Positions 14,383 through 63,792 of a stretch of 64,000 bases of DNA are shown here, one piece after another. The DNA comes from Escallonia rubra (lineage: Eukaryota; Streptophyta; Magnoliopsida; Escalloniales; Escalloniaceae). How positions within the stretch are numbered: the stretch's first letter is position 1; every line of letters begins with the position of its first letter. The DNA lies in assembly GCA_033065855.1 (NCBI GenBank), contig JAVXUO010000173.1:124001-188000 (forward strand). Direction: 5' to 3'. Below the pieces are notes generated by a model. That model saw only the letters and a program-made list of their open reading frames with translations. It had not been told where the DNA came from and did not search any database. Made by a program: the position numbers and the translations under genes.

Positions 14383-15742
14383 CAGACTCTATTGAAATCG
14401 CAGATACCAGAGGGCCATAATTTCCTCTAACCGAGACACTGGTGTCAGGGGTGGAGCCAAAAAGTCTAATCGGAGGGTGCCAAAAAATTATAAGAAAAAT
14501 TAATGGCTACCGTAAAAGAATTCGCGTCACTATTTAATGCGTTAAATACAAAATAAATTACTTAATTTGACTACTAATCATACAAGTTCACTATTCATAC
14601 TGATTTACTTAAATTGGTAAGGTTAGTCAACAACAAATTATTAATCTTTCATAGAAAAATTATCTCTTATTGTCGATCTATTCTGTATTACTATTATTTG
14701 TGCGAGAAAAATAATCACGCATAAGTTAAAATACTGCAAGAATTTAAAAGAACTACTTTGATATTTTCTTTTTAACTGAAGACTTGAAGTTTGAAAGAAT
14801 GAAGATGAACAAGTGAACGAGAAAAACAAAAAATATGACAGCCGGTGAAAAGTCAAAGACACAACAAAATAAAATAATGCATTAATGTTACAATATAATG
14901 ACAAGTTTCCTAAATATTTTAAACTTGATTAATCATTACTTAAAATAGTTAAACACAAATTTCCAAATTGGGGGGGGGGGGGGGGGCGCCATGCCCCCCC
15001 TGGTCATGCTTTGCATCCGCCCATGCCGGTTGTCCCCTTCCCAGTGTACTGAAAGCGGATTTCTAAGATTGTATCATTCACAACTACTTTATATATTTTT
15101 TTCACGGCCTTATCAACCCCTTGTGCTTCATTTTCGATATCAAAGTCCTTCAGTTTCCGTTCAGCCTGTCAAAACCTATTGCATTACAATCATAGAGATT
15201 TCTATTTCTTCCTCCCCCTCCCCCCACCCCCCCCCCCCAAAAAAATATTTAAAAATTAAAACGTTATCAATTCTAAACACTATAGATGTCAAAAGCATCT
15301 CTTTTATGTAGGGACGGATGTAATATTACGTACTGAAAGATGTACTCGATAATGTTTTAAGCTACCTGTATATAAACATCAAAGACTCGTCTTCCAAGGC
15401 TCTGATAAGATCGATTGCCTCTGAAAATTATCTCCGCAAAGTGAAGCGTGACATTATAGTCTCCATTTGCTAAGCAACGGGCATAATAAGTGAGAGATAA
15501 AGGAGAGAGCCGAGCTATTGTGTACAATTCAGAGTCGTTTATCCTTAGAACAGAAACGTTTTTTGCTGTGTAGTCATTTGATGTTTCATCACGGTCCCAA
15601 AATTGTCCGGTGCTGCTAGTACCCCATTTTTTGGCGAAAGGAACAAATTTTGTTGAACCTGCTGAGTATTGATCAGCTTCATACGTTGTATTTCCAATGG
15701 TAGTCGTGCTTCCACCGCAATTAATGTGCAATGCATACATAT
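14383..15742 (-). pseudogene. Copy A: malectin-like domain exons, interrupted
   Basis: Exon 15742-15366 starts MYALHINCGG, the hallmark start of the malectin (di-glucose-binding) domain, and ends GRRVFDVYIQ before a GTAGC donor. The next exon begins at 15165 with AERKLKDFDIENEAQG and continues to YTGKGTTG, where a hAT element (14446-15025) interrupts it. It resumes with SVRGNYGPLVSAISIES before a GTAAGT donor at 14382. Removing the element and one target copy restores GTTGVSVRGNYGP in frame. Confidence 0.88.
14446..15025. mobile_element. Small hAT-type element in the malectin exon of copy A
   Basis: The 580-bp insertion starts CAGGGGTGGAGCC and ends near GCATCCGCCCATG, consistent with hAT-type CAGGGGCGGAGCC termini. 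The right target copy is CCGGTTGT (15026-15033). The left copy is CTGGTGT (14439-14445), the same octamer with one substitution and one lost base. The exon reads through when element and left copy are removed. The interior is AT-rich with a poly-G run at 14970-14986 and has no transposase. Confidence 0.75.
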
Positions 15743-16088
15743 CTATGGAAGAAGGAACACATGAATTGTTGATTAACATTTAACAATAGAAGTGATAGAA
15801 GAAGAGAACGGGAAGCCCTTTGTTGTGCAATATTGTTTAATCCAAAACAGCCATCAAACTTTATACTCGTTACACTCTGACAAAAGAGTCCATTTCACAT
15901 CTTTGGGAAGTAGGATTCTAAATTAGATGCTTAAATGCTCGCCAGCATATTTGTTTTCCCCTTCATTTGATATGGCAATTAATCCTTTTTTAATTATATA
16001 GTTTTCACCATTGGAGAAAAAAATATTCCTAATTCTCCTTTGTGTGTGTGTGTGTTGGGGGGGGGGGGAGAATTCTTGTCCATTGTCA

Positions 16089-28320: not shown

Positions 28321-29569
28321 AATCATGGTTGATGTTTTCATGTCATATATGCCGAAGAGCAATTGAAACTTGATTGGACAATCATAACTCCCCGATCCAA
28401 CCCAACCCAATAGTCCAAATTAGATATTTTGGCCTCTCCTCTCCCATCTCGAGGAGAATAGTAATACTTCAAGACTTTAGAGTTGAATTGTGCAATTAGA
28501 GATAACGATTTACTGTTTTTCAAATCTGAATCAGAGCGTTGGCCGATCAATCTTTTTTGTGTTAGGGATTAATTCTTCAAATCTTCATTGCCGTTGAAAT
28601 TGTCTGATTTTAATTTCATATCGTCATTGCACACGATCTAATTTCCCTTTGTAAAGATTTCGTTCCTTGTATCCTCTCGCCATTCTTTCTAAATATCCAT
28701 GTTTTCGACGTAGACTCGATAATTATTGCCTACTAAAGATCATTTTGTTGTTATTAGTCCTAGGCTAGAAGTTTGGTGAGTCAATCTGAAGCCCACATTC
28801 ATGACCGAGGATGCTTGGGTAATTTGACGTTTTTGGTTTCAAAGCATCAATGTGGGCCTTGTTACTTCCAAGCATTCCGCTCTAAGTTTTCCATCATCCC
28901 ATCAGTACTACAGTGGCATTTTTGCCTCCACGATTTATGTGGCAATACCTTTTTGTCTTCATTTCTCATTATTGATCCTATTTTACCCTTCACAAAACGT
29001 CCTTTTGGGTTTGAGACGTATTGCGATCACATCAAAATTTTGTATCTATTACTTCGTAAATTCTTTTATCTTACTTTTTAAGATAACTTGTGATTACCTG
29101 TACACATTTTGTTTGATTCTGTACTTTGTTTTTGGTATCCATCGGATGATACCGTTTAACTTTTGTACAATTCTTTTGCATATATCAAATTGATTATGTA
29201 TTTTGGTAAGTCATGTCACGTGTACTTGACTTACCCATGTGAATTGGAGTGACTTACTCATGCAAATTAAAACGTGAGCTAGTTTAGTTGGACGAAGAAG
29301 AGATCGCAATCTAAGTTACATTCAATAAAAAAATTCAAAAAAGTCATATAACCCAAATCCAAGATACAAACTGAGAGCACCACCACTGTCGCCATCAACC
29401 ACACAACCACCACATACCATCACAACCACCACCATGGCATCACCCACCACATCAATAACTCAGATCTACAACATATCTGAGATAGATGATCTCAAATATC
29501 TTTCTCAAGCATTTATGTTTTCTTTCTTTATCCCGTTCTTGCAATCCTGCAGTAATTTAGGGATAATTT

Positions 29570-60660: not shown

Positions 60661-62083
60661 GTTCTTCTTTGTATGTTTCAGAGTGACAGGTTCACAAAAT
60701 GCTAAAGAAACTCATGAGCTCAAATGCCTACGTAGGCAACCCTCCGTTCAAGCTCAAAAACGTTGTACGATATGTACATTATCCTGAAAAACTTTCTCGC
60801 AAGTCAATCAAGCAGCTAAACCTTTTATTTCTTGTTGCTTAAAAATTACCCCTAAATTATTGCAGGATTGCAAGATTAGGATAAAGAAAGAAAACATAAA
60901 TGCATGAGAAAGAATATTGAGATCATATATCGCAGATATGTTGTAGATCTGAGTTGTTGATGTGGTGGGTGATGCCATGGTGGTGGTTGTGATGGTATGT
61001 GGTGGTTGTGTGGTTGATGGTGGCAGTGGTGGTGCTCTTTGTTTGTATCTTGGACTTGGGTTACATGACTTTTTTGGATTATTTTATTGAATGTAGCTTA
61101 GATTGCGATCTCTTCTTCATCCAACTAAAGTAGCTCGCGTTTCAATTTGCATGAGTAAGTCACCCGAATTCTCATGGCTAAGTCAAGTGCACGTGATACC
61201 AAAAACAGAGTATGAAATCAAATAAAGTGAGTACCGTTAATCGCAAATTAGCTTGAAAAGTAAAATAAAAGAACCTACAAGTTAATAGATACAAATTTTT
61301 GATGTGATCGCAATACGTCTCAAACCCAAAAGGATGGCTTTGTGAAGGATAAAATAGGATCAATAATGAGAAATGGAGACAAAGATATTGCCACATTAAT
61401 CGTGGAGGCAAAAGTGCCACTGTAGTACTGATTATATGATGGCATGCTTAGAAAGCAATGCTTGGAAGTAGCAAGGCCCGCATTGGAAGCATCATCGCTC
61501 CTGAATGTGGAATTCAGGTTCACTCACCAAACTTCTAGTCTAGGACTAATAAAAACAACATGGTCTTTGGTAGGCAATAATAATCGAGTCGACGTCGAAA
61601 CATGGATATTTAGAAAGAATGGCGAGAAAATACAAACAACGAAATTCTTATAAAGTGAGAAAATAAATCGTGTGCAATGACGATAAGAATTAAAGAAACA
61701 CAAATCCTTCGGAATTAAAATCAAACAATTTCAACTACAATGCATATTTGAAGGATTAATCCGCAACAGGATTGATCGGCCAATGCTCTGATTCAGATAT
61801 GGGAAACAAGAAAGCGTTATCTCTAATTGCGCAATTCAACTCTAAAGTCTTGATATTCTCCAAAGTCTTGAAGCATTACTATCTAGGGTAAATTACACTA
61901 AACACCCCTAAGGTTTTACGTAATTACACTCCACTACCACCATCTTTAAAAATTACACTCAGCTCAAAAATTAACTTTTTTCTTTTACGGTGTTAATGGT
62001 GCAATGCAAAAAGACATGAATGCCCCCCAGACTGTTTTCTTGGAAAGCAGAAGCTCAACCTTGCATCTAGCCATGGAAAACCA

Positions 62084-62845
62084 ATGAGAACAAGAACCAA
62101 TCTCCTGCAACTAAATATGTCTCCATTTGCGTTGCTCACCATCTTCATGCTCACTCTGCCACCACTCCCTGCTCTCACTTTCTCCCTCTGCCGTACCTCC
62201 TGCAATAACATTCCCATAAACTACCCGTTCGGCTTCGACGACGGCTGTGGCGCCCCGCAGTACCGCAGAATGCTGAACTGCTCCACAAACCTACTCTTTA
62301 TAACTCCATCCAGCACCTACAAAGTCCAAAGCATCAACTACAACAAGAAGACCCTCACGATCTACGACCCGTCCATGTCCACCTACTCCATTCTGCAGCC
62401 TCACCACGACTTTGTCATGTCGGAAATAAAGTCCGTAGTTATCCCTCCGGCACCCGACACTGTTTTCGCCCTCCTAAACTGCTCCATAGACTCGCCGGTT
62501 TTGAACCATTACAGGTCTCTGTGTTTCAACTTCTCCGATCACTCCTGTGACGAGCTCTACGGTTCGTGCATTTGGTTTAGGCTGTTTCACCTCCTGTCGA
62601 ATAACACGTCGCCGTGTTGCTTCACTGGGTATGACACCGTGAAGTATATGAGCATGAACATACTGGATTGCACACATTATATGACGGTGTACGACACCGA
62701 TGGTCTGCACGGCGTTGCGCCGTTGGACTGGATTTATGGGATTAAGCTGTCGTACAGTGTACCGGATACTGGGTGCGACCGGTGTGGACGGTCCGGCGGG
62801 ACGTGCGGGTTTGATGTTGAAACTGAAGGGATTATCTGCATTTGA
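62084..62845 (+). CDS. Secreted GUB_WAK galacturonan-binding-like protein (captured)
   Basis: The frame has 253 codons. A hydrophobic leader (SPFALLTIFMLTLPPLPAL) looks like a signal peptide; an alternative ATG at 62117 would start just before it. Then comes the GUB_WAK_bind signature C-x3-C-N..INYPFGFDDGCG, with Cys spaced as in the ectodomains of LRK10-like and wall-associated kinases, and later SPCCFTGYD. Near the end is GCDRCGRSGGTCGFD, the WAK-associated C-terminal motif. No membrane segment or kinase follows: a TGA stops it after GIICI, in a small tandem duplication (GAAGGGAT...TCTGCATTTG twice). Related proteins bind pectin in the cell wall. The frame is uninterrupted and GC-richer than its surroundings. 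Whether it is expressed is unknown. Confidence 0.82.
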   Translation: MRTRTNLLQLNMSPFALLTIFMLTLPPLPALTFSLCRTSCNNIPINYPFGFDDGCGAPQYRRMLNCSTNLLFITPSSTYKVQSINYNKKTLTIYDPSMSTYSILQPHHDFVMSEIKSVVIPPAPDTVFALLNCSIDSPVLNHYRSLCFNFSDHSCDELYGSCIWFRLFHLLSNNTSPCCFTGYDTVKYMSMNILDCTHYMTVYDTDGLHGVAPLDWIYGIKLSYSVPDTGCDRCGRSGGTCGFDVETEGIICI

Positions 62846-62874
62846 AGGGATGGTCTGCATTTGAAGTAATTGAA

Positions 62875-63055
62875 CTCTAATTAAACCTTAAATTAAATGC
62901 CCTAATCGAATTGAATCCTAAATTAAATTAATTGAACTCCTAATTGAACCCTAAATTGAATGCCTTAATCTAACTGAACCCTAAATTAAACTAATTGAAC
63001 CCTAAAATGAGCTAATTGAACCATAAATTGGCTAAATTGAACCCTTTAATTCACT
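62875..63055. repeat. TAATTGAACCCTAAATT array in the Pack-MULE
   Basis: AATTGAACCCTAAATT monomers and a TGCC(C/T)TAATC variant occur here. It is the reverse complement of the telomere-like array in CACTA-2 (24950-25590). It lies directly downstream of the GUB_WAK stop codon. Confidence 0.8.
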
Positions 63056-63792
63056 TAGAGTTTGCGAAGTTGACTGGAATTTTGAAAAATCCATTACTAC
63101 AGGAAGACCACACAGGTGAGTAAATGACAAATGGTGGGTATTTTAGGTATGAAAATTGCATAAAGTAATGTGTTAGGGAATCTTTTCACGGAGTTGGGCC
63201 TGCCGTTAAATGTGTGTAGTTGTGTGTAATGCGGGTACAAACCTCGGGGGGTCGGAGTGTAATTTTTAAAGATAACGGTAGTCGAGTGTAATTACGTAAA
63301 ACCTCATGAGTGTTTAGTGTAATTTACCCTACTATCTATTCTCCTCAAGATAGGAGAGGAGAGGCCAAAATATCTAATTTGGACTTTTGGGTTGGGTTGG
63401 ATCGGGGAGTTATGATTGTCCAATCAAGTTTCAATTGCTCTTCGGCAAGTCTACCATGAGTCAAGTCTATGCAAGTCAAGCCAATATGCTCTGAAGCGCG
63501 GACTGGGAATCTTCCAGAGAAGGAAGACAAGGCTTCTTTCACATTCATCGTTCATTTGTTTGTCTCATGTGAATTTGCAAGTAGACCAAACCACTTCAGA
63601 GAGTCAAAAAATACTAGACCTATCAAAGTAGTTGATGGGTCAAAAATTACTAGACGTACTTGCAACGAAATCCTTACAAAGGCAAAATAGATTGCGTGTG
63701 CAATAAAAAAATCACCCTTGAACTCATGCATGCTCTCTAATTACTGAAAAAAATCATATTAAATTTTACCTCCATTCATATTAAGACTAAAC

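Follow-up and report, generated by a model that had tools for sequence, protein, structure and literature searches.

Pack-MULEs of rice, maize, tomato and Arabidopsis are non-autonomous elements with inverted ends and a 9-bp target site duplication, and for the tomato PM-ZIBP family PMC3310237 describes a captured gene fragment that is present in several copies, with the parent gene residing elsewhere; the locus described here is like them in all of these traits. Captured fragments are usually non-functional and numerous ones are expressed or carry signs of selection, according to a review (PMC13317346), and elements with several captured loci are known as well (PMC8903248 and PMC4858842). GUB_WAK_bind, the domain captured in the present case, is carried by a grapevine ATL protein (PMC5133618), and a paper on legume RLKs and RLPs (PMC7333395) marks it in each of the ten columns that make up two domain tables. 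The literature searched contained no paper combining GUB_WAK_bind with a Pack-MULE, and the best 25 of 183 papers included none with the end sequence GGGTAAATTACA.

The element under study lies in the window, by which we mean the whole stretch of DNA analysed (64 kb, C3222:124001-188000); genome searches covered 566 Mb in 3222 contigs. We consider it very probable that a non-autonomous Mutator-like element (MULE) captured exon 1 of a kinase-less gene at C2642, and that the copy in the window is young and neutral, with a frame that is open by youth and not by retention. The element and its borders comprise the following features.

61877..61885, no strand: left 9-bp target site duplication, TACTATCTA
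61886..63329, plus strand: Pack-MULE, 1444 bp, with no transposase in six frames
61886..61960, plus strand: left terminal inverted repeat, 75 bp
62877..63051, plus strand: degenerate A/T-rich repeats spaced at 21 and 63 bp, seen in the 3' part of this MULE family
63255..63329, minus strand: right terminal inverted repeat, 75 bp
63330..63338, no strand: right 9-bp target site duplication, TACTATCTA

The coordinates are exact: the element begins with GGGTAAATTACACT and ends with AGTGTAATTTACCC, its terminal 75 bases form inverted repeats matching at 68 of 75 positions (a second computation of the inverted arms returned 77 nt with 91% complementarity), and the target duplication is identical at all nine positions on either side. 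A sequence-only reading of this DNA had proposed a Mutator-like element with a perfect 9-bp duplication and inverted ends, and had offered as grounds for its own dismissal that the 9-bp repeats might not flank inverted termini; they do flank them, and the proposal holds. The end motif GGGTAAATTACACTAAACACCC, allowing at most one mismatch, occurs 287 times in forward and 291 times in reverse orientation genome-wide, and the same pattern read backwards occurs 0 times in either, so that the end sequence of the element is not due to chance. Many family members have the first 160 and the last ~470 bases of the element in common and differ in the middle. When all six frames of the 1444 bp were compared with Pfam with stop codons masked, no transposase was found and only GUB_WAK_bind and WAK_assoc matched. 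The stretch 61886-63329 is a non-autonomous Mutator-like element and a genuine Pack-MULE.

A MULE transposase was found at 150 places among the matches listed, out of 3309 candidates, none of them linked to the ends of this element. The nearest pair of terminal repeat and transposase, judged by eye from about 100 of 578 terminal-repeat places and the 150 transposase places listed, is ~21 kb apart; one transposase match, C1209:242553, lies ~3.4 kb from a family member and outside the ends of that member. The longest relative with paired ends that we noticed, a 3.9-kb member at C1125, matched no Pfam family in six frames. As a side observation, many of the transposase frames listed measure 777-783 codons and score almost alike, which points to recent amplification of a MULE family that is not linked to the ends studied here. 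The C1125 member (C1125:70450-74330, 3.9 kb) and one of 1.7 kb at C2188 have similar flanks (TTAATCAAA and TTTATCAAA) and may represent the same insertion site occurring in two lengths.

Inside the element, the captured DNA and the frame it carries are laid out as follows.

62064..62863, plus strand: captured segment, leader plus most of parent exon 1, including a 19-bp tandem duplication (borders set by visual inspection of the copies aligned with the parent)
62073..62087, plus strand: upstream frame of 4 codons (MENQ-stop) that overlaps the main start codon, also found in the parent
62084..62845, plus strand: 253-codon GUB_WAK_bind frame, its stop TGA created at the capture junction
62384..62386, plus strand: codon 101, Tyr replacing Cys; Cys in the parent, in the sister copy at C2551 and in all four paralogues
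62824..62861, plus strand: 19-bp tandem duplication at the 3' junction, present in C2551 and absent from the copy at C966

The ATG frame at 62084-62845 encodes 253 amino acids, is the longest ATG frame of the 64-kb window and matches Pfam GUB_WAK_bind over residues 36-95 with 49.4 bits (cut-off 29.4); WAK_assoc reaches 24.2 bits on it, under the cut-off of 27. An uninterrupted 253-codon GUB_WAK frame without the kinase, as put forward from the letters alone, is what the element holds, with no Pfam family besides these two. A search of solved structures gave nothing (best E 0.74). G+C content amounts to 50.6% in the captured DNA, 35.4% in the rest of the element and 38.4% in the window. The TGA of the 4-codon upstream frame overlaps the main ATG (as ATGA) in element and parent, an arrangement in which translational control is possible. 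Elsewhere in the window, a frame at 15360-15779 on the minus strand carries a malectin domain (87.4 bits) and probably represents part of a malectin receptor-like gene.

A genome-wide protein search, in which all 91 candidates were scored, passed 15 matches: identical ones in the window and at C2444, one of 94% identity at C2551 and one of 92% at C2642, partly deleted relatives at C966 (in two pieces) and C1182, and eight others of 29-35% identity. The locus C2642:57493-58251, whose DNA is 93.8% identical over 785 bp, is the parent: it has no MULE ends, and its similarity to the element ceases at both capture borders. The search for a parent gene proposed with the sequence-only reading has thus yielded one, starting at C2642:57493 and 92% identical in protein; a parent with the same flanks outside MULE ends, which would have told against that reading, is not what was found, since the parent stands outside MULE ends in other flanks. 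Joining the ATG exon, a 92-nt GT-AG intron and a second exon gives a parent model of 299 residues with a hydrophobic tail at its end (the exons being joined by script in the present analysis, not taken from annotation), in which GUB_WAK_bind and WAK_assoc both score over cut-off; the unspliced frame stops after 267 residues. From its sequence, the hydrophobic tail may confer GPI or membrane anchoring. The upstream neighbour of the parent at C2642 is a 1-Cys peroxiredoxin.

The same reading had the domain cut from a receptor kinase, and this part finds no support. Pfam found no kinase in the spliced 299-aa or the unspliced 267-aa model of the single close parent gene and no RING domain in the parent, and the 4.5 kb downstream of it, scanned in three forward frames with stops masked, matched no Pfam family; as far as that DNA shows, the captured domain therefore does not derive from a receptor kinase, and we reject that origin. 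For the four nearest paralogues (loci C942, C967, C1152 and C1543), three forward-strand frames of each match, extended by ~1.5 kb to either side, gave GUB_WAK_bind over cut-off in four of four, WAK_assoc over cut-off in one of four, and no other family. The copied stretch extends from the parent leader and breaks off a few codons short of the exon 1 end; there parental ATT TGC becomes ATT TGA, so that the stop codon arose through the fusion itself. The copy at C966, without the 19-bp duplication, displays the simple capture junction.

The fragment is now found at four insertion sites, with its frame intact in two copies and broken in two (C966 and C1182). Each site has its own 9-bp duplication, TACTATCTA, TACTACTAA, AAAATTATA and AAAACAGAA, all different and all exact (9/9 at the window copy and likewise at three of three other fragment-bearing sites). 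The independent sister copy at C2551:388296-389733 is full-length, with its frame at 388778-389536. Differences from the parent are common to the four copies in the parts that they retain, which argues for one capture followed by amplification. The tree of the copies is nearly star-shaped, with low support; a grouping of the window copy and C2551 comes from the 19-bp duplication alone, in a part of the element that C1182 no longer has. At C2444:4524-5967 the same element stands in the same flanks with one mismatch over 1443 bases, and window 56895-64000 matches C2444:10959-3853 over 7.1 kb at 99.7% identity, so that this is an allele or a recent duplicate and not a fifth insertion: the two are haplotypes, or the complex cluster was recently duplicated. 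Beyond the 7.1-kb match the window contig and C2444 diverge into rearranged duplicon arrays. The C1182 copy has a feature of its own: at C1182:560417-560915 it contains another captured fragment, which matches the PB1 domain in part and under cut-off (22.1 bits, cut-off 23.6, the query being inexact in its first residues) and which over positions 7-437 recurs at 91-93% in at least seven other places (40 of 117 candidates scored), further places matching as two separate pieces, as an intervening intron would produce; this copy has the look of a chimera made from two or more genes.

The timing of the insertion was read from copies of the surrounding duplicon, one of which lies in the window itself.

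28330..28720, minus strand: duplicon partner with element-free site (near 28458-28466)

When the flanks of the element are joined, they align with this partner near 28.46 kb across the insertion point at 90.3% ungapped identity, with several indels, one of which is a 4-bp gap inside the target. The unoccupied site that the sequence-only reading placed there is real and carries this 4-bp difference. The partner has at least 43 matches in the genome including itself (40 of 92 candidates scored); the four best-scoring other copies are all empty, so that five of the five copies examined, that at 28.46 kb included, are free of the element, which bears out an insertion after the inverted duplication. 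The 4-bp gap led us to consider an excision scar at the 28.46-kb partner, and we rejected it: three of the four other copies examined have the gap in common, and the closest, C3222:44519-44957 (97.1%), has a full-length, ungapped target with one base different and no element. The simplest reading is that the insertion happened after the C3222:44519-44957 copy had split off. That 61886-63329 might be no transposon at all, and instead a segmental or gene duplicate bounded by coincidental repeats, has next to no probability: we found no point in its support, and against it stand the separate 9-bp duplication at each of four insertion sites, the hundreds of matching termini across the genome together with a parent that lacks them, and the ungapped element-free target in the closest duplicon copy. 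This empty site refutes the duplicate reading, and we rejected it.

Pairwise dN/dS is low throughout, at 0.21 for window and parent, 0.09 for C2551 and parent, and 0.29 for window and C2551, the last not involving the parent and using unweighted site counts, which lower it. Assigning changes to branches gives 14 replacement and 10 silent changes for the window copy, 0 and 3 for C2551, and 7 and 15 for the parent and stem, with one further site differing in all three. Since 7 replacements compare with 15.8 expected, the parent/stem branch looks constrained and not decaying, and this constrained branch, included in the ratio, shapes the low window/parent value; with changes assigned to branches, we rejected pairwise dN/dS as a sign of selection on the element. 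On the window branch a uniform mutation model expects 18.3 replacements against the 14 seen, a marginal deficit (P = 0.038). Matching the transition/transversion ratio lowers the expectation to 16.3 (P = 0.20), matching the full mutation spectrum to 15.0 (P = 0.42) and matching CpG/CHG context to 14.8 (P = 0.43). The matched models, which condition on the changes actually seen, are the fairer ones because 17 of the 24 window-branch changes are C-to-T or G-to-A, and with them the 14 replacement and 10 silent changes give no sign of purifying selection on the window frame. Rates on this branch are equal in coding and noncoding DNA (24/758 versus 13/415, Fisher P = 1.0), the noncoding count being taken from 178 bases on the left and 275 on the right, wherever C966 and C1182 have the same base, and not from the repeat part. 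At nine window-specific changes in the first 330 coding bases, C966 has the parental state at nine and C1182 at eight. Four neutral models put the probability of acquiring no stop codon by chance at 0.46-0.72, so that the open frame is no evidence of use. The window copy looks like a young neutral passenger, although the marginal deficit under uniform mutation, the window/C2551 ratio of 0.29 and the nearly star-shaped tree of the copies count against this reading.

The window protein also departs from the conserved cysteine framework of a functional GUB_WAK protein, with 15 cysteines where the parent model has 18: Cys101 has become Tyr, and C254 and C264 of the parent are cut off by the truncation. 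An odd cysteine count would lower the chance of correct folding for a secreted protein rich in disulphides. The signal peptide that the sequence-only reading gave to the frame is putative: it is in the parent protein that the computation showed a hydrophobic run at the N-terminus, and in this region the window copy carries N5T, V22M and L26P. A functional secreted wall-binding protein, acting as decoy or as a new ligand-binding protein, is a reading that could draw on the intact frame with its domain match, on the largely preserved signal-peptide-like region of the parent, on the nearly identical allele or recent duplicate at C2444 and on the uniform-model P value; we hold it to be highly improbable, given a branch that is neutral under matched models and evolves at the rate of the noncoding parts, the loss of Cys101 and the truncation of a terminal C-x-C...C segment kept in four of four paralogues. 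That the secreted decoy conjectured from the sequence alone would be under selection is for the same reasons not borne out.

If any copy were kept as a gene it might be the sister at C2551:388778-389536 and not that in the window, which we regard as quite unlikely. Its branch shows no replacement and three silent changes, Cys101 and the full frame are retained, and coding sites changed less than noncoding ones (3/758 versus 7/415, Fisher P = 0.04), which weakly suggests constraint. These are three changes only, however; 0 replacements among 3 has P = 0.15 under neutrality, and the noncoding comparison is one of several tests and uses outgroups that differ from those of the coding one. Distinctly improbable, too, is a scenario in which the Pack-MULE lineage released a new secreted GUB_WAK protein, the junction stop removing the tail and turning a probably anchored protein into a soluble one, with C2551 rather than the window copy as the selected form.

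An effect on the parent gene was weighed separately. The element family might give rise to small RNAs by which the parent is silenced or tuned in trans: across the captured stretch, element and parent have 170 of 765 21-mers and 126 of 762 24-mers in common, with a longest exact match of 56 bp, and captured sequences in maize are described as siRNA reservoirs acting on donor genes in the review (PMC13317346). The constraint apparent on the parent/stem branch speaks against it, and we judge it unlikely.

Our preferred account, the capture of a kinase-less gene's exon 1 by a MULE, starts from direct observations (the ends, the target duplications, the parent, the shared capture, the empty sites and a pattern of changes in the window copy that fits neutrality) and would run as follows. 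A non-autonomous MULE would have taken up the leader, together with the greater part of exon 1, from the GUB_WAK/WAK_assoc gene at C2642, the capture junction supplying the TGA stop that closes the 253-codon frame. The composite element would then have moved to at least four sites, presumably by a MULE transposase made elsewhere and acting in trans, and one copy would have inserted into a member of the local duplicon family when its members were already divergent. This window copy would since have gathered changes at the neutral rate, mostly C-to-T and G-to-A, as would fit a methylated transposon, and its frame would be open since it is young and not since it was kept, a function being improbable.

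By itself the locus is ordinary genome traffic, an ordinary plant Pack-MULE with a decaying gene fragment. It illustrates plainly how one can be misled by a frame that is intact and a pairwise dN/dS that is low, and with its parent, sister copies and empty sites it is well suited to testing how fast captured genes decay and whether the parent is affected by them. Among known proteins, the parent is like the kinase-less GUB_WAK/WAK_assoc type (receptor-like-protein type), with both domains over cut-off and no kinase, whereas the element frame has neither the parent's C-terminal Cys pair nor its hydrophobic tail. With WAK/WAKL kinases and GUB_WAK-bearing ATL ubiquitin ligases, the parent has GUB_WAK_bind in common, and it differs from them in having no detected kinase or RING. 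Among Pack-MULEs, and set against the values in PMC3310237, the terminal homology of ~75 bp is shorter than the typical 100-500 bp, and the length of 1.44 kb exceeds the 1.0-1.2 kb commonest in tomato; a further difference is that the frame in the present element runs from the parental ATG for 253 codons.
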